NCBI RefSeq assembly: GCF_001484195.1
Contig: NZ_LLYW01000011.1
Coordinates: 1-42,874 of the forward strand
DNA from: Thermococcus celericrescens
Lineage (GTDB): Archaea > Methanobacteriota_B > Thermococci > Thermococcales > Thermococcaceae
DNA length: 42,874 bases
Direction: 5' to 3'
The notes under the pieces were generated by a model. It was not told the origin of the DNA. It ran no database searches and saw only the letters and a program-made list of their open reading frames with translations. A program made the position numbers and the translations under genes. Shown piece by piece: positions 10,997 through 23,390 of the stretch (positions are counted from its first letter, which is position 1; each line of letters starts with the position of its first letter).

Positions 10997-11272
10997 TTGG
11001 GGCACACGGTGTACTACCGCACCAGGATTGATAGCTGGAAGGAATTCAAGGAGTTCCTAGAAAAGGTCTGCGAAGGGCTTAGCTTTCGTTTTGTTGAGGG
11101 AGAAGACGCCGTTCTAATCCTTCCTGAATGCTACGGTGTCGAGCCCCTGGAGATAAAGAAGATGGGTAGGGGATTCGTCAAGACAAACCTCGTTGAACCC
11201 TGCCATTCTATCTATCTGCTCGTGCTTCATTCGGTTTCTTCTTTCGGTTCAGTCGAGCTCTGGGAGGACTGA
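10997..11272 (+). CDS. Small hypothetical protein, probable TTG start
   Basis: The frame is open from 10919, but GGTGAT (10984-10989) lies seven bases before a TTG at 10997, which I take as the start. This gives 91 residues beginning (M)GHTVYYRTRIDSWKEFKEF. TATA-like elements precede it (TTTAAA near 10933, TTTTTAAAA at 10955-10963). The product is soluble-looking and I do not recognise the family. It has two Cys, one in PECYGVE and one in EPCHS. Its last 46 bases overlap the end of the convergent membrane-protein gene. Codon use resembles neighbouring real genes. Confidence 0.6.
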   Translation: MGHTVYYRTRIDSWKEFKEFLEKVCEGLSFRFVEGEDAVLILPECYGVEPLEIKKMGRGFVKTNLVEPCHSIYLLVLHSVSSFGSVELWED

Positions 11273-11985
11273 CCGAGATAGACCTCCAGTATCCTTACGG
11301 GTCTGGCGCTCCTGAAGGTTCTATCCTCCACGAGAACCTTCACAACTCTTCCAGGCTCCGCTTCCTCGACCGCCGGGAGCCAGTAGAAGCCCGGCTTGAT
11401 GTTGGCCGCCATGTCGTCGTGGATGAAGACCCTGACCATGTCGCCCTTGACTTCCTCGACCGTCCCGTAGGTGTAATCCCTTCCAAAGGTTGCCTTGAAG
11501 TAATGGCGGAAGAGGAGAACCGCCAGCGCTATTATCCCGACGTAGACGTAGTAGTGGTAGATTTCTGGAGAGGCAAGCTCCAGCAGGGAGTATCCGAGGA
11601 AGGCGAGAAAAGAGATGGCGGAAATTCCGTAGTAGAAAATCCTGTATGGTTTTTCTTCGATGAGAAAGTTACCGTAGCGGATGAGGAAGTGGCGGAGGTA
11701 GAGGAAGTATGGGATTGAAACCGCCAGCAGGTAGAGGGGAGTGCCTGTTAGGAAGACAATAACGAAGTTGATCGCGAGGTAAGTCACGAAGCAGAGCTGG
11801 AGGTGGAGGCTGATGAGTTCGTGAATTGTGAACCTTTTGCCTTTAATGATCCGGTGGGACAGGCGAAGAGACGGGGGATTATTAGAGGGAGTGGGGATAA
11901 GGAATCCCTTGACTTTTCCTTTTAGATATTTGGGGAACCTTTCGGCGGCCAATCCTAGCTGATATAAATGGTCTTCAAGGTTCAT
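11227..11985 (-). CDS. Multi-pass membrane protein, DUF2101-like, last gene of the pilin operon
   Basis: The 252-residue product has about four membrane segments: roughly residues 58-80, 82-100, 115-135 and 140-160. A basic region comes before them (KGKVKGFLIP, SHRIIKGKRF). A soluble C-terminal domain of about 85 residues follows, with YTYGTVEEVKGDMVRVFIHDD and VVKVLVEDRTFRSARPVRIL, a beta-rich look. This resembles the DUF2101 proteins of Thermococcales; I recall that family from memory only. It starts 18 bases after the stop of the prepilin-like gene and follows GAGGGGGT. Its position suggests a role in assembly or anchoring of the pilin-like proteins, which is inference. Its 3' end overlaps the convergent small gene. 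Confidence 0.8.
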   Translation of the reverse strand: MNLEDHLYQLGLAAERFPKYLKGKVKGFLIPTPSNNPPSLRLSHRIIKGKRFTIHELISLHLQLCFVTYLAINFVIVFLTGTPLYLLAVSIPYFLYLRHFLIRYGNFLIEEKPYRIFYYGISAISFLAFLGYSLLELASPEIYHYYVYVGIIALAVLLFRHYFKATFGRDYTYGTVEEVKGDMVRVFIHDDMAANIKPGFYWLPAVEEAEPGRVVKVLVEDRTFRSARPVRILEVYLGQSSQSSTEPKEETE

Positions 11986-12003
11986 TTTATTTGACCCCCT
12001 CTT

Positions 12004-13101
12004 TTACTGTCCGAATATCAACTTTTTTGTGATTGTATCGAGTTTAAACGAGGGATACGGTGGTACCGGGTCACCGATTATACAGTTGGTGCCTTCGACT
12101 GCACATTTGAGGAAATAGTACGAAGCACTGGTATAACTTGAGGGGACGCTTGCCCCTATACTTGTCAGCGCACCCAGCAGTGTTGGGTCTATGCTCGGAT
12201 CGGGAACCATGAAAGTTTCAAGTCCAACTGGAAGCGTCTGGGTAAACCCTAAATCCCTCTGAAACTCCTCAGCTAAGATTGTGTAGTACTCATGCTGGTT
12301 CATACTGCCCTCGAATCTCTCGAGTATTGTCGGATAATACATCCCCGCCGATGAGTTGTCCGGGAGACCAACGTAACACCAGTCGAGGACAAGTCCATCC
12401 ACGTCACCTTGATTGGATATGTTATAGTACCCGTAGGTTTCCCCTGGAAATGGTATTTTGCACGGGGTTATAACTCTCGTGTACAGTCCGTTCAGCTCTC
12501 TGACGATGAAGGGGTCTTCAAAACCGACAATGCTGACAACTGAGTATATGTACTTGTCATTTCCCGCGGGAATATCTCCCGAGTACCGCACGACTCCAGA
12601 GCCATCTATGATTGTTATGTTCTTTATTTTCACCCTGACGGCGACGTGGAACGAGTCGAGGGGCCCAACTGTGACTTCCAGGTGTCTGTTTATGAACTCC
12701 TCGGGATCAGACGGTTCTATATCCATTCCGATGGAGTTGAGATAGGAAACAGTATTGATGAACCAGTCCCTTATCGTGATGTCCCCCATACTGCTCTGGG
12801 AAACCCCATTTAGGGTTCCCTCAACCATCAAGCTTTCAAGCTCCCGGGACGCGTTGTTCACGAAGTTATTGTTGATTACGTATTCCGTTAGGGTTAAATA
12901 GGCCCTTTTAAAGCTCAGCTCCACAATGTTCTGGAGGTCATCCTGGATGTTGTTTATGCCGAAGTACTGCCTCTCGACCAGGGTTCTCTGGGATTGGGAT
13001 GTAATGATATAGCTGGAGGCCTCCTGGTACGTGGCCGCGAGAAGGAGGAGGGGGATAATGAGAAGCAGTACCGTGACGTTGAGCAGATAACCCCTGCGCA
13101 T
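12004..13101 (-). CDS. Prepilin-like surface protein (365 aa)
   Basis: The N-terminus, MRRGYLLNVTVLLLIIPLLL, has a short basic head, RRG and a hydrophobic stretch, the shape of an archaeal class III (prepilin) leader. It lacks the acidic residue near +5 that most class III leaders have. The rest (about 335 residues) is predicted outside the cell. It starts with a helical stretch (QSQRTLVERQYF, DDLQNIVELSFKRAYLTL), then has a Tyr/Ser/Pro-rich part with N-glycosylation-type sequons (NNAS, NITI, NISN, NSSA). There are four Cys in the exported part, which could form disulfides. The start overlaps the stop of the previous gene (TGATG), so the two are probably coupled. Family unknown to me. Confidence 0.8.
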   Translation of the reverse strand: MRRGYLLNVTVLLLIIPLLLLAATYQEASSYIITSQSQRTLVERQYFGINNIQDDLQNIVELSFKRAYLTLTEYVINNNFVNNASRELESLMVEGTLNGVSQSSMGDITIRDWFINTVSYLNSIGMDIEPSDPEEFINRHLEVTVGPLDSFHVAVRVKIKNITIIDGSGVVRYSGDIPAGNDKYIYSVVSIVGFEDPFIVRELNGLYTRVITPCKIPFPGETYGYYNISNQGDVDGLVLDWCYVGLPDNSSAGMYYPTILERFEGSMNQHEYYTILAEEFQRDLGFTQTLPVGLETFMVPDPSIDPTLLGALTSIGASVPSSYTSASYYFLKCAVEGTNCIIGDPVPPYPSFKLDTITKKLIFGQ

Positions 13102-15707
13102 CAGTCACCCCTCCATATCCGCAAGGTCACCTGTATGGCTTCTCCCGTTGCCGGTACGTTCTTTATTCCAATCGCCTTACCCGCCAGACCTTTAAGCTCT
13201 ATGCGGATGGGGTTTTCTTCCGTGCCTGGCATCAGGGTGTTATCGAGTTTTATCTGATCTACTGGATGCTCTTTTGCTCCCAGTTGAACAAAGAGGCGAT
13301 AGATGGCATCGTCCAGGGCATATTTCCATGGTTTGAGGCCGTAGGTCGTTATTGGTTTTGGACTCTCGCTTGGTGGGCAGTTCCCTATGACAACCGTACC
13401 CGATTGTGGAGTACCTGTGAGGTTATAGTAGTACGTCAGGTTGTAGCCGCAGGCATTGTCCTGGGCGTAGTAGGTGAAGATGTTTCCATAGGGTGCGTAT
13501 CCTTTGAGGAAGTAGTGGACGATGGCGCGGCTATCATCGACCCTGAACGTATAGTAATCGTCATCGCTGAGAATTTTGAATGTATTTGTTGACCCATTTA
13601 CCATGATGTAGTCTGCAATCTTGGTGTAGGCGAGCCTGATTAGATAGAGGTCTATGGGAAAGCTTAGAAATTCCCGTGTAGTGGGCCCTTCATAAACATG
13701 AATTGAGTTGTCTGTATCTACATAATCGCCCTGGAAGAGTATTGCCGTCCACACATCAACGTACCACGGCTGTGCTTTGTCGGGCAGGTAATAATCGAAA
13801 TGCATCTCTGTATCGCTGTCTGAGCTGAGTTCGTGCGTCTCTTCTATAGGTATCGTGAACCTCGTAGTTGTAACCTTCGGTATGTAGGTGATGTTTATGT
13901 ACGAGTCTGGATAGCCGTAGAGAACCCTTTCGTTGTTCCAGTTGTAGTTGTAGTCCTGGCCGGCATATCTCACCGGGCGATGACTATAGCTGGCGTCATA
14001 GTAGGCGTCGAGCATGATTATCAGATTGAAGTTTCTTTTACTAAGCTCCTGCAGGGTTACATACTTTGTTAGATTGCCCACGAGTGTGGCGTTGTCTATA
14101 GTTACTGTGCTCAGTCCAGGTGAGACGCTCGTGTTCTCGTATATCAGGTTCAGGCCAGTCCCGTTTGAGTAATAGACCCTGACCTCGTGGACGCCTTCGA
14201 CGGTGAGCTTTATGTTTATGCCCGTAACGTTGCCCGGGACGAAGAGGGAGTTGAGGTAGTATATTCCGGTTCCCTTACTTGTTATGTTGTAGAGCTTAAC
14301 CAGACCGGGGTCATCGACCTGAGGCGATGAGGTCGTGTACTTCAGGCTTATCCAGCTACCGCTTCCAAAGCCCATTTCATCCCCATAAGGGTTCGTAAAC
14401 TCTGCCTCTAAGAGATTGTCCCCTCCGATGAGTTGGTTGGATATGTTCGTAGACCAAACTGGATTCCCGTTTAGGGTAAAACTTACAGGTTCACCGAATC
14501 TAGTGGCGTAGTTGAGCAGTCCACTTATGTCTGAAGCGTCGAGGGGAAGTTTGAATCCAATACTAACATCAAGAGAGTTATCATTATAATCCCACATACT
14601 ACATGTATACGAGGGTATAAGAACACTGTAGACCGCATCGTCAATGTCTGGAACGGTCGTGTACGCTCTTGACGAGGAGATGTACCACTTTCGTATTATT
14701 GGAAAAATAACCCAATAGTAATCCCAGCTAGCCTCAATGTAAACCCCACTGTCAATGTACACAACTGCTTGGTTCCCGCTGGCATCCTCGTATACTATGG
14801 CCCAGACTTCATAACTTGTAGTAGAACGGGAGAACTCACTGTTTAAGTACAATCTGATGGTATTTACTCCATCATTTATTACAATGCGACCAGCGTATCC
14901 GTAACCATCCACATAAATATTGTCATAATAAACACTCCACCCGTTTAAATCCTTATCAACGTCCACACTTCCCCCGCTGTAGCTACCGCTGAGCTGGAAC
15001 CTCCCAGATTGGACTGTACTGCTGTCGCCTGGAACAGTCTGATACTCAATATAAAGGGACGAAACCGTTAGAGGGTAGTCTATGTAATCCTCTGATTGAA
15101 CCGGCTTCGAACAGTAATACCCCCCCGCTAGAACCCTCTGTATTCCAACGAGCTTTTCCTGGGACGTTACCAGCTTGGTGAGGTACGCCTTCGCCACGTA
15201 TCCCCTCGGCGTCTCATTGGAGACGTATCCGCTGACCATAACAGTTGCGGAGCCAACGTCGCTCGCGTTCTCGTAGGAGTTGTCGAAGGTGAGATACGGG
15301 CTGGTGTAGTTGTTTATTATCAGCTGGTACTTGTAGCCGCCTGCGAGGTTGTCGAGGAGGTACTTCATTATGGTCTCAGCTTTCTGTTTATAATCCGTTG
15401 AGTTTAACGCCCAGTACGTTGCGACTATCTGGAGCGGTGGCATTTGGGGATTTACGTAGGTCAGATCCAGAACCGGGTCTGTCCCGTTTATCCAAGTCTC
15501 TATCTGGGTGGGGGATACTAAATTACTTAATGGGACGGTTCTAAAGGCTTCCAGAAGATTCTCCGCCACTTGTTTGTTTTCTCCCCGAATCTGGGTCGTG
15601 TAAATGCCCGAAGCGTTGCTGGTTACCCCTATTATGCCAACGACTACTATCGTCACAAGCGTTACCGCGAGCAGAGCGTCGAGCGTGAAGATGAATCCCC
15701 TTCGCAT
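13101..15707 (-). CDS. Very large prepilin-like surface protein (868 aa)
   Basis: The ATG at 15707 follows GGTGAGG; the open frame extends seven codons further upstream without better signals. The product begins MRRGFIFTLDALLAVTLVTI: RRG, an acidic residue at +6 and about 20 hydrophobic residues, as in archaeal prepilins. More than 800 residues follow outside, with many N-glycosylation-type sequons (NAS, NGT, NYT, NET, NIS, NLT) and repeated beta-rich Tyr/Thr/Ser stretches. This is far larger than a normal major pilin, so it is more likely an adhesin or tip-like subunit. The composition is more AT-rich than the flanking genes. I know no named family for the body. Confidence 0.8.
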   Translation of the reverse strand: MRRGFIFTLDALLAVTLVTIVVVGIIGVTSNASGIYTTQIRGENKQVAENLLEAFRTVPLSNLVSPTQIETWINGTDPVLDLTYVNPQMPPLQIVATYWALNSTDYKQKAETIMKYLLDNLAGGYKYQLIINNYTSPYLTFDNSYENASDVGSATVMVSGYVSNETPRGYVAKAYLTKLVTSQEKLVGIQRVLAGGYYCSKPVQSEDYIDYPLTVSSLYIEYQTVPGDSSTVQSGRFQLSGSYSGGSVDVDKDLNGWSVYYDNIYVDGYGYAGRIVINDGVNTIRLYLNSEFSRSTTSYEVWAIVYEDASGNQAVVYIDSGVYIEASWDYYWVIFPIIRKWYISSSRAYTTVPDIDDAVYSVLIPSYTCSMWDYNDNSLDVSIGFKLPLDASDISGLLNYATRFGEPVSFTLNGNPVWSTNISNQLIGGDNLLEAEFTNPYGDEMGFGSGSWISLKYTTSSPQVDDPGLVKLYNITSKGTGIYYLNSLFVPGNVTGINIKLTVEGVHEVRVYYSNGTGLNLIYENTSVSPGLSTVTIDNATLVGNLTKYVTLQELSKRNFNLIIMLDAYYDASYSHRPVRYAGQDYNYNWNNERVLYGYPDSYINITYIPKVTTTRFTIPIEETHELSSDSDTEMHFDYYLPDKAQPWYVDVWTAILFQGDYVDTDNSIHVYEGPTTREFLSFPIDLYLIRLAYTKIADYIMVNGSTNTFKILSDDDYYTFRVDDSRAIVHYFLKGYAPYGNIFTYYAQDNACGYNLTYYYNLTGTPQSGTVVIGNCPPSESPKPITTYGLKPWKYALDDAIYRLFVQLGAKEHPVDQIKLDNTLMPGTEENPIRIELKGLAGKAIGIKNVPATGEAIQVTLRIWRGD

Positions 15708-15712
15708 TAGCC

Positions 15713-17602
15713 TCACCTTCTCGGCCACACCCAGAGCCTTATAACTCCCATCTGTCTCACGGGCTTAAGGTAGGCGTCGAGATTCCCGATGTCCTCTATG
15801 GTAACCTCCGGAAATCCTTCAAGGCTGTATGCCCACACTGTGAATGTAACGCTTTTATCGAGTTCTGCTGGGGGGACGAGACAGGACAGCGACATGGTGG
15901 CATAGTTATTGTTAATCTCGATCTCGCAGTTTTCCGGTGTTCCTGAGATGTTGTACGTCGGATAGATTTTAGTCATGTTAGCTCCATAAATCCACCCGTC
16001 CTGTGTCTTGAAGAACGCCACAATTGAATGTCCCGTGTAATCCGGCGTTGTGAACACCGATAGTAGTGTCAGGTTTCCCTCATCCACTCCACCTGGGAAC
16101 GTGATGTTTACCATACCGCTAGTGTACTGGTCAATCGTTCCGGAGTATGCCTCCTTGGGCAATTCATCCGGCGTTAATGTGTACTTATGGGAATAGACTT
16201 TTTTTAACGTTGGAACCCGTCTTTCCGTATATTCAATCCATGGGGCTGAGTTTTTCGAGCCTTGGATTGTTTTCTCATCGGTTACTGAGGTGCAGTTTAT
16301 GACTGCTACCTCTTCCCCGTTGATTGAGACGTCAAAAAACGACGGGAGCTGGTAGGTTACGTTGATGCTCGAAATCCTTAGCTCTACCCCGGATTCTCCC
16401 GCGTAAAGGATGCACGGGGGTGCAACGTCCTCAAACGAATACCCATCATCGAACTGGTCCAAGCTTCCGCCGTTGATTGTGAGGCGGTCGGCGTTGTCTA
16501 TTATCTTAGCGTTGTTTATGTAAACATCATCATTCCAAACATACCACCAAATATCCGTCTGAGCTATAGGCACCCAGTCCCCGTTTACATTAACATGCCA
16601 GCTGGATTCTTCTAGGGGGTCTCCGGTTATCGCAAACCAGTATCCATCAAAGTGAATGTAAACAGCATCGGCAGTTATATCCCCTCCTGGTGAGGTTCCT
16701 TGTCCTCTGCCAAGGGAAATCGCTGGGCTCGAATCGTCGGGGTTGAAAATGTAGAGGGACCCTCCGTTTATTGTTAAATTTCCTTTATACACTTGAACGG
16801 TTCCGTTCACGTAAACACTGTGTCCGCTTACGGCTATGGAACTGGCTTGGGGATTCCCTCTTATCTCGATGTATAGATCTCCGTTGACGTAAACGTCTCC
16901 GGCGGAAACGGAAAGTTGGGCCCACTTTGTTAGTTCCAGATTTCCATCAACCGCGAAGTAGCCGGCGCTGAGGGTGACTTGATAAACCCCGTTCTGACCC
17001 TTTCCAATTATGAAAACTGGGTTTAAAATGCAGACCGAGCCGCCGCTGTTTGCGTACTGATTGTTGGCCCAGGGGCTTCCACTGGAACTCTGGAATTCAA
17101 ACTCCTCTGATGGGCAGTATGCGGTAACGTCACTGTCGGTGGGCAGTTCTGTGGGATCGCATGTTGTAATAAAACCCGGGAGCCCTCCCCGAACATTTCT
17201 CAACAAACTAGCCTCTAGGGTGTATTCCGTCAGGTAAGTTGCCAATTCGAAGTTGTTCCCGCTGGAAAGATTGCACAAAGCGTTTATTATTGATTTATTG
17301 TCTGAGGATACCATGGACATTAAGGTTTCGAGTTTTGTGTAATCAAGATAGCCCTCAATGGAATCCTGCAGTCCAACCATCCTTATGTTCTGGGAAGATA
17401 CATGCCAATTCTCCGGTTCCCCGGGGCTCTTTGTCAGGACATCCAGCATGTTGTCCGCTATGTTGGCCCTCTCATACCACCCGACCATAGAGGCTATCTC
17501 GCTCCTCAGGCTCTCCGAGGTCGCCGAGACCGTGCCGAGTATCATAATTACAAGAACTATCGAGATGAGCGCGTCCATTGAGAAGAGCTGGCCACGTCTC
17601 AC
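15713..17602 (-). CDS. Large prepilin-like protein with a beta-solenoid-like region (629 aa)
   Basis: I choose the GTG at 17602, six bases after GGAGGT; its GTGA overlaps the stop of the previous gene. The N-terminus MRRGQLFSMDALISIVLVIM has RRG followed by Q at +1 and D at +6, then a hydrophobic stretch. Residues of about 180-370 show short repeating turns such as FAVDGNLEL, VYVNGDLYIE, VYVNGTVQVYKGNLTINGGS and ADAVYIHFDG. This pattern of 10-20-residue strand-turn units suggests a right-handed beta-solenoid. The C-terminal part is beta-rich with sequons (NITF, NLTL, NISG). Probably a displayed adhesin-like subunit; function is inference. Confidence 0.8.
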   Translation of the reverse strand: MRRGQLFSMDALISIVLVIMILGTVSATSESLRSEIASMVGWYERANIADNMLDVLTKSPGEPENWHVSSQNIRMVGLQDSIEGYLDYTKLETLMSMVSSDNKSIINALCNLSSGNNFELATYLTEYTLEASLLRNVRGGLPGFITTCDPTELPTDSDVTAYCPSEEFEFQSSSGSPWANNQYANSGGSVCILNPVFIIGKGQNGVYQVTLSAGYFAVDGNLELTKWAQLSVSAGDVYVNGDLYIEIRGNPQASSIAVSGHSVYVNGTVQVYKGNLTINGGSLYIFNPDDSSPAISLGRGQGTSPGGDITADAVYIHFDGYWFAITGDPLEESSWHVNVNGDWVPIAQTDIWWYVWNDDVYINNAKIIDNADRLTINGGSLDQFDDGYSFEDVAPPCILYAGESGVELRISSINVTYQLPSFFDVSINGEEVAVINCTSVTDEKTIQGSKNSAPWIEYTERRVPTLKKVYSHKYTLTPDELPKEAYSGTIDQYTSGMVNITFPGGVDEGNLTLLSVFTTPDYTGHSIVAFFKTQDGWIYGANMTKIYPTYNISGTPENCEIEINNNYATMSLSCLVPPAELDKSVTFTVWAYSLEGFPEVTIEDIGNLDAYLKPVRQMGVIRLWVWPRR

Positions 17603-18105
17603 GATACCACCTCCCACGTCTCGCCAACGGTGACGTTGAACTCCACCAGTCTGCCCGCGTAATACAGGTGGCCACCATCGAGCCGGAATCCCCTCACGTC
17701 TTTAAGGTACTCCCTGAAGAATCTCCCAATGCCCTTGGCTATTTTGGAGTCCCTTGAGGAGTTCGAAGAAAGGTCATGCGTGAATTTTACGGTTATCGTA
17801 ACTTTCTCATCGCTTTCAGAGGTTACGCCAAGTCCGGCGAACCTGAACCCCACGCTTCCGTATTCTGTGTAATTCTTTATGATATCATTCAACGCCTCGT
17901 ACTCAGGTTTGTCGCTGATCACCCCTGTCTCGATGTAAACGGCGGCCTGGGCCGCGGCGTCCCTCACCGCCGCCAGCATAACGGAATCCCCGCTCTCCTG
18001 GGTGTAGAGCGGGATGATGACAACTACCCCCGCGAGGATTATCCCAACTATGAAGAGCATCTCGACTGAGGTTTGGCCCTTACGGCTTCCCGCTAACCTT
18101 GACAT
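17599..18105 (-). CDS. Class III prepilin (168 aa)
   Basis: The leader is typical: MSRLAGSRKG followed by QTSVEMLFIVGIILAGVVV, that is KG, Q at +1, E at +5 and a long hydrophobic helix. Prepilin peptidase (PibD/FlaK type, not in this window) would cut after KG. The exported domain of about 130 residues has a beta-rich character (GSVGFRFAGLGVTSESDEKVTITVKF) and a C-terminus ending VEFNVTVGETWEVVS. Size and leader fit a fibre-forming or minor pilin. The ATG at 18105 follows GGTGGG; the frame overlaps the end of the upstream gene by 26 bases, suggesting coupled translation. Confidence 0.85.
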   Translation of the reverse strand: MSRLAGSRKGQTSVEMLFIVGIILAGVVVIIPLYTQESGDSVMLAAVRDAAAQAAVYIETGVISDKPEYEALNDIIKNYTEYGSVGFRFAGLGVTSESDEKVTITVKFTHDLSSNSSRDSKIAKGIGRFFREYLKDVRGFRLDGGHLYYAGRLVEFNVTVGETWEVVS

Positions 18106-18529
18106 CCATCCCACCGGCGGTCTCGTTGTATTGGCAAACTATCCAGAGTTCGTTATTTGAGGGGGTGAGGGTAACCGTGCTGTTTGAGACGAGGGGCACG
18201 GGAATCCTCTGGACGGTCGTGTATTTCCCCCCGTTGATCTCCGCCTCGACCTTCAGTTCGTTGGATGTCTCGTTCAGTGTGACCCTTACGTACTCCCCGC
18301 TTTTCAGCTCGAATGGGACGGTCTTCTTAACCGCGAATCCATCGCCGGCGGCGTAGACCTTGGTCACGGTGTCCCTTAAGTCGATTGTGAAGACCTTCAG
18401 CCTGGTAGATGCGTCGAACGCCCTTGCCCCCTCAACCTCGTGGGTTGCGAGGCTTATCAGGCTGACCACGGTCAGCGTCATGAGGGTCACCGCAAAGAGA
18501 AGGTCGAGGCTCAGCTGTGCTTTTCTCAT
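18080..18529 (-). CDS. Class III prepilin-like protein (149 aa)
   Basis: The leader is very short: MRKA followed by QLSLDLLFAVTLMTLTVVS, with Q at +1 and an acidic residue at +5, and with Ala instead of Gly before the expected cut. The rest is a beta-rich domain (FAVKKTVPFELKSGEYVRVTL, LKVEAEINGGKYTTVQRIPV) of about 115 residues with a sequon near the end. The ATG at 18529 follows GGTGG by five bases; an upstream GTG (18538) is inside the ribosome site. The stop of the preceding gene lies one base before the start, so the pilin genes are stacked with almost no gaps. Confidence 0.82.
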   Translation of the reverse strand: MRKAQLSLDLLFAVTLMTLTVVSLISLATHEVEGARAFDASTRLKVFTIDLRDTVTKVYAAGDGFAVKKTVPFELKSGEYVRVTLNETSNELKVEAEINGGKYTTVQRIPVPLVSNSTVTLTPSNNELWIVCQYNETAGGMDVKVSGKP

Positions 18530-18530
18530 C

Positions 18531-19238
18531 TCATCCACCCGGGTTGATGTTTATCCTCAGCTCCTTGGCCGTTGTGTTGTATGACCACGAGTCGCCTCTG
18601 TTGGGGTTCCACTCAACGACGATTCTCAATTCAGAGGGCAAATCCGCTGGCTCCACGATTATACCGTATAGGGTGTACGTGGAGCCGCTTTTGGCCCCGC
18701 ACTCCTTGGAGAACTGCCCACTGGGATTATCAATGGATACCTGGGAGAATGGAGGGGAGGGTATTATCCTCCAGATTGAGCTGTTGTTGCTGAGCTTTTT
18801 TGAGTAGATTGCCGCGCCATGAAACACGTTCTTGTCGTCTCCGGTGGTGAGGGGTTCAAAGGGAGCCGTTTTGTTTGTGATGAACACGTAGGTGCCGGGT
18901 CTGCCCGACATGTTGCAGTACGTTATGAACACGGCGGGGTTCTTTACCCCTGATGCCCTCTCAACGTATCCGATGTTCTTCAGGTAGGTCAGCTTAACGT
19001 AGGTCGTCGCCTTTGAGCCCGGCCCCTGGGCGTACACCTGGCTTATCGTATTGGATATGGCGTTCGCCAGGCTCTTCTCCTCAAGGGCAATCTGGATCCG
19101 CAGGTTCTCAATCGATGGTGAGCCCTCACTGAAGGAGACGTTCCTCACGGAGTATATCAGGAGGATTGTGAGCAGCCCGAAGATGAACAGGAACTCGAGG
19201 GATATCTGGGCCCTCCCAGTGTTGCTTTTCTTGATCAT
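18531..19238 (-). CDS. Class III prepilin (235 aa)
   Basis: The leader MIKKSNTGRA is followed by QISLEFLFIFGLLTILLIYS: Q at +1, E at +5 and a hydrophobic helix, with Ala before the expected cut as in the next gene. The exported part is about 205 residues and includes a helical stretch (IENLRIQIALEEKSLANAIS). A Thr/Ser-rich beta part follows, with Cys in TYCNMS and KECGAKSG. The ATG at 19238 follows GGGAG by six bases. A TATA-like GATTAAATAG (about 19280-19270) lies in front, so the six pilin genes may also have their own promoter inside the operon. Confidence 0.82.
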   Translation of the reverse strand: MIKKSNTGRAQISLEFLFIFGLLTILLIYSVRNVSFSEGSPSIENLRIQIALEEKSLANAISNTISQVYAQGPGSKATTYVKLTYLKNIGYVERASGVKNPAVFITYCNMSGRPGTYVFITNKTAPFEPLTTGDDKNVFHGAAIYSKKLSNNSSIWRIIPSPPFSQVSIDNPSGQFSKECGAKSGSTYTLYGIIVEPADLPSELRIVVEWNPNRGDSWSYNTTAKELRININPGG

Positions 19239-19276
19239 ACATCTCTCCCTCAAATGGTATATCCACGAACATCTAT

Positions 19277-19906
19277 TTAATCGTTACTCTTCGGTTTTCC
19301 GGCGTTTACAACGGCAAAAAGGCCAGTTCCGAGCCGTTTCGTTTCAACACCGAAGTAGTCTCCGCTGAATATTTTGAACCTGTATCTCTCCGGCTGAAGG
19401 GAGTGCTTTTCCACTAGCCCGGCCAGTTCGTCGATGAAGAACTGCGTCAGCTCGTAGTATACCAGGTCGAGCCTCTCGCGGGTGATGTCTCGGACGAAGA
19501 GGACAACTGGAAGTGCTGCCAGCCCCGCGATAAAGTACGGCTGCCCCAGGATTGCCGTTGCGGCTGCAGTGGAGGCGATCAGTGCCCCTATAACTGCGTA
19601 GGCTATCTTTTCCCTCTTCTTTGCTTCCTTGATTTCCCTGACCTTTTCCTCCCAGATGTCGAGGAGCGCTGGATTGTAGAAATCAAATGCGGTATGGCGC
19701 TTTCCCTTCGCTATCCTCTCCCTGATGAGGTCGTCCCAGTCGTCCTTGTAGTAGATGACCTCCCCGTGGAGCTTCGCCCGCTCGGCATCGAGGGAGGAGA
19801 TAATCCTGATGATGTCCTCGGCGCTCTCGTGTGCTATGTGAGCGTAGACCTCCTTCTCGTCGAGGTCGAGGGCCACCTCAACGGAGTCCTTTATTGGCTC
19901 ACTCAT
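19277..19906 (-). CDS. Membrane protein of unknown family in the CetZ-pilin operon
   Basis: The 209-residue product has an acidic, soluble N-terminal half (MSEPIKDSVEVALDLDEKEV) and a charged helical stretch (EEKVREIKEAKKREKI). A membrane hairpin follows at about residues 103-137 (AVIGALIASTAAATAILGQ, FIAGLAALPVVLFV). The C-terminal cytoplasmic part of about 70 residues ends FAVVNAGKPKSND. Its start overlaps the end of the CetZ gene by eight bases, so the two are probably translated together. It could tie the tubulin-like protein to the membrane; this is a guess from position. I do not recognise a family. Confidence 0.75.
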   Translation of the reverse strand: MSEPIKDSVEVALDLDEKEVYAHIAHESAEDIIRIISSLDAERAKLHGEVIYYKDDWDDLIRERIAKGKRHTAFDFYNPALLDIWEEKVREIKEAKKREKIAYAVIGALIASTAAATAILGQPYFIAGLAALPVVLFVRDITRERLDLVYYELTQFFIDELAGLVEKHSLQPERYRFKIFSGDYFGVETKRLGTGLFAVVNAGKPKSND

Positions 19907-21071
19907 CCTTCTCCCTCCTGAGCTTTTTGCTTATCCTATCTATGTCCGGATACTCGCCGTCGGGGAATATATCCTTGAGCTCACTTCCTCCCCTGGCGTA
20001 CACGTCATCGAAGTCGGGCAGGCCGCTTAGGAGCTCCTTCTTTTTGTTCTCCGCTTCCTCCTTTGCCTCCATGAAGGACTGGGCGTACCGCTTGGCGGTG
20101 ATGATGATGTCCTCGATGCTCCTGCTCTCGTAGATGCCGCTGAGGAGCGTAACGACCTCGACTTCCCTCTCGCGCGGGTCCGGGTAGAAGCCGCGGAATA
20201 TCTGCTTGCCCCTTATCTTATTGGTGAGGTAGTTGAGCGCCTCGAATATGTCGGCGGCCTTCAGAACCTCCGGCGGCCCGTGAATCGCGACCAGTCCGTA
20301 CAGCGCCGATTCGATGTTCGCCTCAAGGTACAGGCCCTCGCTCTCGAAGGACCGGGTGATGAGCCTTGAAAGGCTTTTTATCCTGCCCGCGTCTGCCTTG
20401 GCGTAGCCGACCGTTGCAAAGCTTCCAAAGGCCTTGAGGACGAACTTCAGGTCGCTCGCGTCGAGGGTCTGCTCTCCTGGAACGTCAACCAGGGCCAAAA
20501 GGGACGCTATCCTCTCGACTATCGTGTAGTTTATCCTCTCGTAGGCTTTGCTTATGTCGTCGCCCCCTTCCTTGAGCTTGTTGTTGTCTATGGCTATTAT
20601 CGAGTCCGCTATCTTTGAGAGCTTGTCGATTGTTATCGCGGCGTTGATTGTGGGCCTTATCCCCTCCTCCTTGAGGGGGAGTGCACCGATGGCCACCACC
20701 AGGGAGTCAGGGTACTCCTCTTTGAGCGCCTCGGCCAGGACGGGTGTTCCTCCGGCGCCCGTTCCGCCGCCGAAGCCGAAGGTCAGGAAGAATATGTCGA
20801 CATCCTCGTAGCCGATTATTGAACCTATCTTGCGCATGACGAGGGGCAAATCGCGCTTCATGGCCTCCCTGCCGAGTATTGGGTTCGCGTTGACCCCCTT
20901 GCCGCCGGTTAGGCTCTCGCCTATGAGTATCCTCCGCTCATGGGGGACATGCTTGAGGTACTCCAGGTCGCCCCTGGATGTGTTCACAGCGAGCGCCTCA
21001 AAATCGACGAGGGAAAAGAGGTCGGCGATTTTAGTCCCGCACTGGCCGACCCCTATGATTAGAGCCCTCAC
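19899..21071 (-). CDS. CetZ-type tubulin/FtsZ superfamily GTPase
   Basis: The 390-residue product begins RALIIGVGQCGTKIADLF. The GQCG loop is the tubulin/CetZ form; FtsZ has GGGGN there. The GTP signature is FGFGGGTGAGGTP (GGGTGAGG at residues 101-108). The T7 loop keeps both acidic residues, Asp204 and Asp207 in TLDASDLKF, so filament GTPase activity is expected. The C-terminal tail (SFMEAKEEAENKKKELL onward) is charged and has no FtsZ conserved tail peptide. It starts with GTG after GGGGTGAT, seven bases after the toroid gene. CetZ proteins act in haloarchaeal cell shape and motility; here the gene sits inside a pilin operon. Confidence 0.85.
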   Translation of the reverse strand: MRALIIGVGQCGTKIADLFSLVDFEALAVNTSRGDLEYLKHVPHERRILIGESLTGGKGVNANPILGREAMKRDLPLVMRKIGSIIGYEDVDIFFLTFGFGGGTGAGGTPVLAEALKEEYPDSLVVAIGALPLKEEGIRPTINAAITIDKLSKIADSIIAIDNNKLKEGGDDISKAYERINYTIVERIASLLALVDVPGEQTLDASDLKFVLKAFGSFATVGYAKADAGRIKSLSRLITRSFESEGLYLEANIESALYGLVAIHGPPEVLKAADIFEALNYLTNKIRGKQIFRGFYPDPREREVEVVTLLSGIYESRSIEDIIITAKRYAQSFMEAKEEAENKKKELLSGLPDFDDVYARGGSELKDIFPDGEYPDIDRISKKLRREKDE

Positions 21072-21078
21072 TTCTCTA

Positions 21079-23322
21079 TCACCCCGCGTCCAGGAGCTTT
21101 ATCTCGTTGGGGTCAATGACACCGTTTCCGTTGGAGTCCTTCGCCTCGAGCACCAGGTATTTTCCGTGGAAGTACTTGAAGAGGCCAGAGGTGAATATGA
21201 GCTCCACAGCCCCGCTGCTCTGCTCGTCGAAGAGAACCATCAGCACGTGGCCGTCCTGAGTCCTGCCGGGTATTATGACTATGGTGCTGGCCAGGGGATA
21301 TGTTCTGCCGTTTACCGTCACCAGCTGACCCTTGACCTCGAGGGTCACCTCGCCGTTGTACCTCGAGACGTTGATGTCGCCGGGGGCGGCTAGGAAGATA
21401 TGGTTTCCATCCTCCACATTGGAAACCCCTTCCTTCAGGTCCACACTTGACCCGAATTCCTCGAGTTGGGGCGCGATGGTCTCGGAGACCGCCCTGTATT
21501 CCCCGGCGTAGTGAAGTTCCCACAATCCGCCGCGGAGGGCGTTTATGGTCTCGTAGAGAGTTACTCCCGGCAGGAACTTGACGTCCTTAATGAACTCGAG
21601 GGCAAGGGCGGTGTCCACGGTCGTCTTCGTCCCGTTGTGGAGGTTGTCAATGACCCACTTTAGGGCGTCGCCCTTTACGTCGTATCCGAGGGCGTCCAGG
21701 ACCTCCGCGGCCCGCACGGTGTACTCCATCGAACTCACTCCTAATGAAACCTCTCCCAGCATGTTTTCGCTTCTGCCAAAGTGTCCCCAGGAGCCGTCGT
21801 GGAGTCTCTGGGCCATCAGCCAGTCCGAGTGCGGGCCCAGCTTCTCAATATCTGTGATCCCCGTGAGGGACTCCAGAACTGTCACTGTGGTTGGGACGTT
21901 CTTTCCAACCATAACACTCAGCAGGTGGTTGAGTATTATGCCCCATCCGTCCGGGGTCACCGACAGGAGCCACTCCTTGGAGGCGTTGATGTCATCCCCC
22001 TTCGCGCCAAGCTCCAGCAGCAGGTCAAGACCCATCGCCGTTTCGTACGGCTGGGGTATGGAGAAGTACCCGGCCCACCTGCCAGGAAAGACCTCCAGAG
22101 AGCGCGTGAAGTTCAGGAGTTCCTCCTTTTCGTCGTCGCTCAGATCGCCAAACTCCGCGAGAAGCTTGACTGTGTAGTAATACTCTTCGGTTACGGTCCC
22201 GTGGAGTACCGCATTGTCCTTGGCGGCGGTCAGGTGTTCCCGCGCCCATTCTATGGCCAGGTCAACACTTTCCGGCACGGGGGTGCATGTCTTCAGCGCC
22301 CGAACCGCGTAGTAGGTTGCCTTCGCCGATCCGCGGGCCCCGGTGTGGATTCCCCAGCTCCCGTCGGGGTTCTGGCTTTCGGTCAGCGCTGAACACAGCT
22401 CCGCTTTGGGGTTGGTGAAGTTTCCTGAGAGCCGGTCAGCCACGCTTGAGAATGCCATAACCGCGTAGGCGGTGGGGGCGATGGAATCCGTATCGAGGAA
22501 CGGGCCCTCACTGCTGGTTAGATAATACGTCCCGTTGTCGTTGCCGACCAGTTCGAGAACCGTCAGCGCCCGCCCTGTGTCAAAGCTCAGCGGCTCGTAG
22601 AGAACCAGGGCGTAGGTGAGCATGGCCCTCTCCCTTTCGTTGAGTCCGTCAGAGGACAGGAGTTCCTTGCACCTCTCCAGATCCGCGGTCACGTTTCCGT
22701 AACCGATGGCTTTAAACGCTATGAGCCTCAGGGCCAGGTAGTCAGGTCTCAAATTCCTGGCCTTCTCCAGGTATTCGGCCCCGGCTTCGACCGCGATGCT
22801 GTTCTCGGGCGTTAAACCAATGCTCCCGAGTGCCCAGAGCGAGAGTGCGGTCGGGTAGAACTCCGTGGGGGAGTCCGCCAGATACCCCCATCCCTCCCCA
22901 TTAAACGCTGTTAGAAGATACGTCCTGCCATCCCGTATTGCTATTTCAATGTCGTTTTCGCTGATTCCGGTATAGTATTCCTTCGTAAGCTCTCTAACGG
23001 CCCCAAGGGCAATCAGAACAGTTGCAGTATCCTGAGGAGTGCTCACCTCGCCCCGGTAGTGGCCCCAGCCCCCATCCGGGTTCTGGATTTCGAGAAGCTC
23101 CTTCGTGACGTTCACTACGGCGGAGAGCGCGTCGGTACTGTTCTGGGCCTTTCCGACGGTGGAAACGAGGGCAGTTAAAAGCAGGGCTTTTTCGGGGACT
23201 TCGTTTGTGTCCGTCACGGTGTATGTGATGAATCCAAGGGACTCATCTATTACACTTGCGGCACTGGCATAAGGGAGCACAAAGAGCATGAACAGAATTA
23301 CGGCAGTTAACGTCCTCCTCAT
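21079..23322 (-). CDS. Secreted alpha-toroid (prenyltransferase/squalene cyclase-like fold) protein with EF-hand-like loop
   Basis: The 747-residue product has a signal peptide (MRRTLTAVILFMLFVLPYAS, with ASA cut site). A long helical body follows with repeated Gly-Trp motifs: QNPDGGWGHY, GEGWGYLAD, QNPDGSWGIH, GRWAGYF, DGWGIILNH and HDGSWGHF. This is the pattern of the alpha/alpha toroid of squalene cyclases and complement-like TED domains. No DxDD cyclase motif was seen, so binding rather than catalysis is likely. A beta-rich part follows (residues about 630-720). The C-terminus DSNGNGVIDPNEIKLL is a canonical 12-residue calcium-binding loop. It heads the CetZ-pilin operon. Confidence 0.8.
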   Translation of the reverse strand: MRRTLTAVILFMLFVLPYASAASVIDESLGFITYTVTDTNEVPEKALLLTALVSTVGKAQNSTDALSAVVNVTKELLEIQNPDGGWGHYRGEVSTPQDTATVLIALGAVRELTKEYYTGISENDIEIAIRDGRTYLLTAFNGEGWGYLADSPTEFYPTALSLWALGSIGLTPENSIAVEAGAEYLEKARNLRPDYLALRLIAFKAIGYGNVTADLERCKELLSSDGLNERERAMLTYALVLYEPLSFDTGRALTVLELVGNDNGTYYLTSSEGPFLDTDSIAPTAYAVMAFSSVADRLSGNFTNPKAELCSALTESQNPDGSWGIHTGARGSAKATYYAVRALKTCTPVPESVDLAIEWAREHLTAAKDNAVLHGTVTEEYYYTVKLLAEFGDLSDDEKEELLNFTRSLEVFPGRWAGYFSIPQPYETAMGLDLLLELGAKGDDINASKEWLLSVTPDGWGIILNHLLSVMVGKNVPTTVTVLESLTGITDIEKLGPHSDWLMAQRLHDGSWGHFGRSENMLGEVSLGVSSMEYTVRAAEVLDALGYDVKGDALKWVIDNLHNGTKTTVDTALALEFIKDVKFLPGVTLYETINALRGGLWELHYAGEYRAVSETIAPQLEEFGSSVDLKEGVSNVEDGNHIFLAAPGDINVSRYNGEVTLEVKGQLVTVNGRTYPLASTIVIIPGRTQDGHVLMVLFDEQSSGAVELIFTSGLFKYFHGKYLVLEAKDSNGNGVIDPNEIKLLDAG

Positions 23323-23340: not shown

Positions 23341-23390
23341 ATCCCCTAGGGGATGAAAATAAATAAACTTTTTCCATATCCCGAGGGAAT
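23341..23390 (-). promoter_or_regulatory. CetZ-pilin operon promoter bracketed by two similar palindromes
   Basis: On the minus strand a TATA-like TTTATTTATT (about 23367-23358) lies between two related inverted repeats. ATTCCCTCGGGATA (23390-23377) is upstream and the perfect ATCCCCTAGGGGAT (23354-23341) is downstream, at the expected start of transcription. The gene starts at 23322 after GAGGTG. This layout suits cooperative repression by one dimeric regulator. Confidence 0.6.

Follow-up and report, generated by a model that had tools for sequence, protein, structure and literature searches.

A cetZ gene within a candidate minor-pilin operon of Thermococcus celericrescens and its relatives

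Gene content and layout of the cetZ operon

The 42,874 bp stretch of Thermococcus celericrescens contig NZ_LLYW01000011.1 analysed here (the window) carries ten co-directional open reading frames (ORFs) on its minus strand between positions 11227 and 23322. They encode a secreted alpha-toroid protein, the tubulin-superfamily GTPase CetZ, a 209-residue membrane hairpin protein (mem209), six prepilin-like proteins (pil1–pil6) and a DUF2101 protein (Table 1), and all lie at the coordinates given in the initial annotation of this DNA. The toroid and cetZ genes are separated by 7 bp, cetZ and mem209 overlap by 8 bp, and pil1 begins 23 bp beyond mem209. The pilin genes overlap by 8 bp (pil1/pil2), 35 bp (pil2/pil3), 19 bp (pil3/pil4), 16 bp (pil4/pil5) and 1 bp (pil5/pil6), and the DUF2101 gene follows pil6 after 18 bp. 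Eight of the nine junctions overlap or are no more than 20 bp apart, the exception being mem209–pil1, and the ten genes have the operon-like layout of a single transcription unit. The promoter sequence GGAAAAAGTTTATTTAT is matched once in the whole window, with 0 matches expected from shuffled sequences, and its core, GGAAAA-GTTTATTTAT, is kept upstream of most aligned toroid genes.

Table 1. Features of the cetZ operon in the window
Feature	Position	Strand	Description and matches
Promoter	23359..23375	-	archaeal BRE/TATA (BRE, B recognition element) GGAAAAAGTTTATTTAT, 5' of the toroid gene (first gene)
Toroid protein	21079..23322	-	secreted, alpha-alpha, 747 amino acids (aa); Pfam SQHop_cyclase_N 7.9e-8
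CetZ	19899..21071	-	tubulin-superfamily GTPase, 390 aa; Tubulin 1.9e-30 and CetZ_C 5.5e-16, both above cut-off
mem209	19277..19906	-	209 residues; start overlaps cetZ stop
pil1	18531..19253	-	prepilin, class III signal, Glu +5; Class_IIIsignal 2.1e-5; Gln+1 and Glu+5 in 82/82
pil2	18080..18538	-	prepilin, Asp +5; Asp+5 in 72/74 with the site
pil3	17599..18114	-	prepilin, Glu +5; Class_IIIsignal 1.1e-4; Glu+5 in 76/76
pil4	15713..17617	-	large prepilin, 634 aa, Asp +6; DUF7305/bactofilin-like beta-helical region
pil5	13101..15728	-	large prepilin, 875 aa, Asp +6; Asp+6 in 73/73
pil6	12004..13101	-	candidate tip pilin, short form without DUF2341 insert; acidic +5/+6 in 0/74
DUF2101 protein	11227..11985	-	membrane protein, last operon gene; PF09874 5.6e-76

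The comparison covered 94 genomes of the order Thermococcales, many of them metagenome-assembled genomes (MAGs); 87 cetZ loci were searched with the ten proteins, and the gene-presence counts refer to loci whose contig leaves room for the gene. CetZ is found in 89 of the 94 genomes, the five without it being 73–91% complete, and two FtsZ-like paralogues were also weakly matched by the CetZ search in most genomes. The mem209 gene comes next after cetZ in 85/85 loci, and the order is kept with pil1 in 82/83, with pil5 in 76/76 and with pil6 in 73/73. The toroid gene is present in 83/85 loci and the DUF2101 gene stands at the operon end in 51/52. Recurrence of both the proteins and their arrangement in 80+ genomes places the coding assignments far outside what chance would give. 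The toroid–cetZ gap is 4–26 bp, and in most loci cetZ and mem209 overlap by 4–8 bp. The toroid gene has been lost in two genomes, G019 (locus L089) and G072 (L098), and in both a TATA-like promoter lies immediately 5' of cetZ.

The CetZ protein of the window has Haloferax volcanii CetZ1 as its nearest solved structure (151.8 bits), with every FtsZ at or below 93.7 bits, and the FtsZ model scores far under its cut-off on this protein. The nucleotide loop GGGTGAG and the T7-like loop LDASDLK are invariant or nearly so among 26 aligned orthologues, and CetZ is predicted by homology to be a polymer-forming GTPase. Mean identity between genomes is 88% for the CetZ core; one FtsZ from these genomes reaches 92%, and CetZ is thus under constraint. 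A GLPDF(D/E)D motif is present near the C-terminus in 88/88 orthologues, at a location that corresponds to the partner-binding peptide of FtsZ. The solved CetZ 3zid ends with a stretch weakly similar to this motif, so the motif may be older than the linkage of CetZ with pilins.

The next gene encodes mem209, which by alignment and single-chain AlphaFold2 prediction consists of a helical cytoplasmic N-domain of about 90 residues, a membrane hairpin formed by two hydrophobic helices, and a variable remainder with a short C-domain. The N-domain has a mean identity of 82%, and the model (mean predicted local distance difference test score (pLDDT) 82.5) is an all-helical hairpin with no match to solved structures at E <= 0.001. 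Assignment to a known family was rejected, as Pfam, NCBIfam and the PDB gave no acceptable match. No convincing relatives were found outside Thermococcaceae; weak matches in three genomes of the same class cover only the C-terminal third and are not trusted.

The first gene product is composed of a Sec-type signal peptide, toroid repeats and a C-terminal EF-hand/dockerin-like calcium loop, DSNGNGVIDPNE. Identification of this protein as a squalene cyclase was rejected, since the DxDD motif is absent on reading the sequence, the signal peptide marks a secreted protein and the toroid matches are partial only. The toroid protein occurs in strongly diverged alleles: the window protein is 91–96% identical to those of L049 and L051 and only ~35% identical to those of L044 and L045, although CetZ is 94–97% identical. 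This divergence follows that of pil3 (rho 0.78). The toroid protein presumably has a role in the operon.

In pil1–pil5, almost all orthologues have a class III signal site whose +5 or +6 residue is acidic. DUF7288 is weakly matched in 3/18 pil5 orthologues. The pil6 product also has a class III site, but it is the only one of the six pilins without the acidic residue, and pil6 is the final pilin gene in every complete locus. As this residue is lacking, pil6 is likely the first, or tip, subunit. The first (tip) subunit proposed for bacterial systems is a large minor pilin that has no Glu5 and is encoded last in its cluster (PMC5207764), and pil6 shows the same signatures: no acidic +5 residue, large size in most species and the last position in the cluster. 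Its length ranges from 359 to 1217 aa, the short forms being smaller than pil4 and pil5. DUF2341, a domain of PilY-type tip adhesins (Makarova 2016, PMC4858521), is found in 14/21 pil6 orthologues; in the alignment the window pil6 lacks this block between shared ends. The tip signature is plain from the computation, and pil6 is a candidate GspK/PilY1-like tip pilin. The AlphaFold model of the short form (pLDDT 71) has a long pilin-like first helix, and with this model no fold match to GspK was obtained at E <= 0.001. The window genome encodes a second DUF2341 protein, apparently Sec-secreted (L155:904-2583, G000:C49).

Genes for a pilus ATPase or platform protein were not found inside the operon, although in archaeal type IV pili they often, if not always, share it with the pilins. 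The earlier claim that there are none holds within the operon only, as the genome encodes PilB and two TadC proteins elsewhere; the idea of a filament with no motor was rejected for the same reason. Of the two clear secretion ATPases in the window genome, one belongs to the archaellum set on contig C17 and the other lies with two TadC genes and a DUF515 gene on C30. The latter is the only non-archaellar PilB of the genome and is interrupted by an intein; the intein lies within the ATPase domain (L011:8946-12425, G000:C30) and carries a LAGLIDADG endonuclease. TadC of the C30 type is present in 93/94 genomes, and wherever TadC and cetZ share a contig they are at least ~32 kb apart. The published content of clade 1 type IV pili comprises an ATPase, two TadC, minor pilins and DUF2341 proteins (Makarova 2016, PMC4858521). 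By gene content, compared with that study, the pilus would be a clade 1 type IV pilus. The prepilin peptidase family PF01478 matched nothing in the window genome, where EppA-specific models were not run. Further ORFs with class III signals (G000:C35:115748-116298 and C17:15613-15690; 159, 144 and 56 codons) may be major pilins. A paper on the archaellum regulator EarA shows no connection to this operon.

Exchange of the predicted pilus-tip genes next to a conserved cytoplasmic part

The short form of pil6 (359–377 aa) occurs in 11/75 loci and is paired with a long pil5 (843–878 aa) in 10 of these 11, the exception (L065) having a long pil4 in place of the long pil5. Supported branches of the CetZ plus mem209 tree force at least 7 state changes on the short-type pil5/pil6. 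In trees built from pil5 or pil6 themselves, all 11 short-type sequences group as one clade with support 100. These were quick trees with Shimodaira–Hasegawa-like approximate likelihood ratio test (SH-aLRT) support, in which long branches were noted. Pairs of loci exhibit the same pattern: L081 and L062 are 81–94% identical from the toroid protein to pil3 and 32–36% from pil4 to pil6, and L057 and L058 are 97–99% identical in the toroid protein, CetZ and mem209 and 32–43% in pil4–pil6. The reverse is seen between the window and L113, with identities of 68–74% in pil5–pil6, 85% in CetZ and 30–59% in the other parts. Across 26 genomes, the pairs of which are not independent, the rank correlation with CetZ identity is 0.04 for pil5, 0.08 for pil6 and 0.76 (rho) for mem209, and that between pil5 and pil6 is 0.68. 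The pil4/5–pil6 end has been repeatedly exchanged between species on a cytoplasmic part that is almost unchanged, and by their trees pil5 and pil6 are a strongly co-inherited tip pair. A limited literature search found no earlier report of this exchange. In three genomes with a short pil6 (L065, L078, L113) pil4 is unusually long (818–918 aa), as if extra domains move among pil4, pil5 and pil6.

The order of cetZ and the pilin genes is interrupted in only 1/83 loci. The initial annotation had named separation of cetZ from the pilins in most relatives as evidence against its proposal, and the order across Thermococcales bears the proposal out on this point. Its description of CetZ as locked to the pilins is too strong, since one locus is split. 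This locus, in the MAG G045 (74% complete), is divided exactly between mem209 and pil1. Contig C80 (L130 3634-3933, 3172-3615) carries the radical S-adenosylmethionine (SAM), toroid, cetZ and mem209 genes and then a 99-residue ORF, a gene for a small membrane protein and ATP-binding cassette (ABC) transporter genes, while contig C36 (L184 3123-11472) carries an intact pil1–pil6 beside an indolepyruvate-oxidoreductase-like gene. Wrong binning does not explain the split because each contig by itself shows the separation; misassembly of both contigs could be its cause. The 99-residue ORF is helical and overlaps the mem209 stop at the usual position of the pil1 start.

The unrelated flanks of the operon, a radical-SAM gene upstream and guaA downstream, also keep their positions in most genomes, and synteny alone is therefore modest evidence of function. 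In genus g3, cetZ is still joined to the pilins despite replacement of the upstream flank.

Possible role of CetZ and mem209 in the pilus

The linkage of CetZ to pilins in Thermococcales has already been reported by Makarova 2016, citing Szabo 2007 (PMC4858521). The published locus holds an FtsZ-family GTPase (arCOG02202, CetZ), a squalene-cyclase-like protein (arCOG03396) and five to six predicted pilins in conserved order (PMC4858521; PMC9856176). Brown & Duggin 2023 found 15/15 Thermococcales cetZ regions to be pilus-associated with conserved order and suggested that CetZ scaffolds pilus assembly (PMC9856176). The statement in the initial annotation that such a system was undescribed was thus wrong, and its pairing of CetZ with pilins is a correct rediscovery of a published linkage. 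Relative to the available parts of PMC4858521 and PMC9856176, the additions made here are the exchange of the tip end, the pattern of acidic residues, the G045 split, the promoter, and the conservation and restriction of mem209. The order count of 82/83, the separate engine locus and the survival of the operon without an archaellum are also listed as new.

The operon is read here as the minor-pilin (priming/tip) operon of the Thermococcales clade 1 type IV pilus, whose cytoplasmic base would be CetZ and mem209, at a probability a little above one half (about 0.55). The ten genes would be transcribed from one promoter, and a class III prepilin peptidase would cut pil1–pil6 to yield the first complex of the filament. 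In this complex pil6 would be the first (tip) subunit, adhesin-like through DUF2341 in most species, with pil4 and pil5 adjacent to it; PilB, the two TadC proteins and probably the major pilins would be supplied from elsewhere in the genome. CetZ and mem209 would form the invariant cytoplasmic base, with mem209 tethering the CetZ polymer to the membrane, possibly via GLPDF(D/E)D, and the polymer would gather or position pilus machines. The outward end would be exchanged owing to its encounters with surfaces, other cells, DNA or viruses. We infer that CetZ contacts mem209, that CetZ acts at the pilus base and that the tip has a binding target. The high conservation of CetZ and the mem209 N-domain, the overlap of their genes and their joint retention in G045 are compatible with such a base. 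A tubulin-family polymer may even be one of the structural components of the type IV pilus machine, with CetZ on the Thermococcaceae-specific mem209 as a fixed base for interchangeable pil4/5–pil6 tips that species trade by recombination, a tentative proposal that falls short of an even chance.

Several points weigh against the minor-pilin reading. The literature searched contains no functional experiments on these Thermococcales proteins, and the model of the short pil6 matched no known tip pilin. CetZ is unlinked to pili in Archaeoglobales and Methanosarcinales (PMC9856176) and methanogen clade 1 pili have been described without CetZ (PMC4858521), so that neither CetZ nor the clade 1 pilus strictly requires the other. 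The G045 split indicates that physical linkage of the CetZ pair and the pilins is not needed. As both are universal within the order, phylogenetic profiling is uninformative on dependence.

CetZ and mem209 may instead be a general cytoskeleton module for shape, membrane organisation or division, with a transcript shared with the pilins through history or regulation and no contact with the pilus. CetZ is conserved nearly as FtsZ is, the toroid–cetZ–mem209 unit of G045 stands apart from pil1–pil6, CetZ elsewhere is not pilus-linked (PMC9856176), and with unrelated flanks held in place the conserved neighbourhood is weak functional evidence. This reading is nonetheless somewhat unlikely, given the retention of cetZ with the pilins where the g3 flank was replaced, the tight overlaps, the single promoter, and haloarchaeal CetZ2, which lies beside a different pilus type and represents an independent repeat of the association (PMC9856176). 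It is rather improbable that the pilus serves mainly DNA uptake (natural competence), with CetZ and mem209 powering or placing retraction at the uptake site. The clade 1 pilus genes of Methanococcus maripaludis and a DUF2341 gene are required for transformation, natural competence is known in T. kodakarensis and P. furiosus (PMC10133366), and the long pil6 form bears DUF2341; however, no transformation data connect the operon to uptake, the short pil6 is without DUF2341, and tip exchange suits adhesion, recognition or virus escape equally well or better.

CetZ could also form the polar cap, a cytoplasmic sheet or cone associated with the archaellum in Pyrococcus and Thermococcus, as the cap protein is unknown and the cap lies beneath the archaellar motors (PMC5517150). 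The archaellum platform gene is missing in 11/74 good genomes, though, and 10 of those 11 retain cetZ in the operon: in nine the contig also shows the pilins, and in the tenth it ends after pil1 begins. A polar-cap or archaellum function as the main role of CetZ was rejected on account of these genomes and is very improbable. Equally far-fetched is mere synteny of close relatives devoid of functional meaning. Co-conservation of neighbouring housekeeping genes in most genomes speaks for it; against it, the operon persists while its pilins fall to 25–50% identity and whole tip genes swap in place, and it persists even next to a rearranged upstream flank.

If CetZ does serve the pilus, a type IV filament system would incorporate a tubulin-family protein, and the question is testable at once because T. 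kodakarensis and P. furiosus have genetics. With the base fixed, the swapping of tip genes would reveal which part of archaeal pili selection acts upon, a pattern known from bacterial adhesins, and it supplies natural variants for testing tip binding.

Comparison with known systems

The operon resembles the VARTIG hypervariable module (PMC8416519), in which gene sets vary and a large immunoglobulin (Ig)-domain protein has a variable C-terminus, only in the exchange of a surface part. Membership in that group was rejected, as the ten window proteins gave no Ig-domain family match and the gene order is fixed. The bacterial GspHIJK and PilY1 tip complexes share with the operon a minor-pilin cluster whose last, usually large member is without Glu5, and a PilY1-like domain in the tip candidate; they differ in that no fold match to GspK was detected and that DUF2341 is built into pil6 itself. 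Haloarchaeal CetZ2, in a regulon with PilB2/C2 (subclade 4F), is likewise encoded beside pilin genes, but it belongs to another CetZ subfamily and another pilus clade, and its ATPase and platform genes are in the same cluster (PMC9856176). The Epd pilus of M. maripaludis (clade 1) has the same ATPase with two TadC, DUF515 gene, class III signal pilins and DUF2341 protein, and DUF515 and DUF2341 are also present in M. jannaschii. Compared with the Epd pilus, the Thermococcales system encodes its engine at one locus and its minor pilins at another, and CetZ, mem209 and the toroid protein are added to it.

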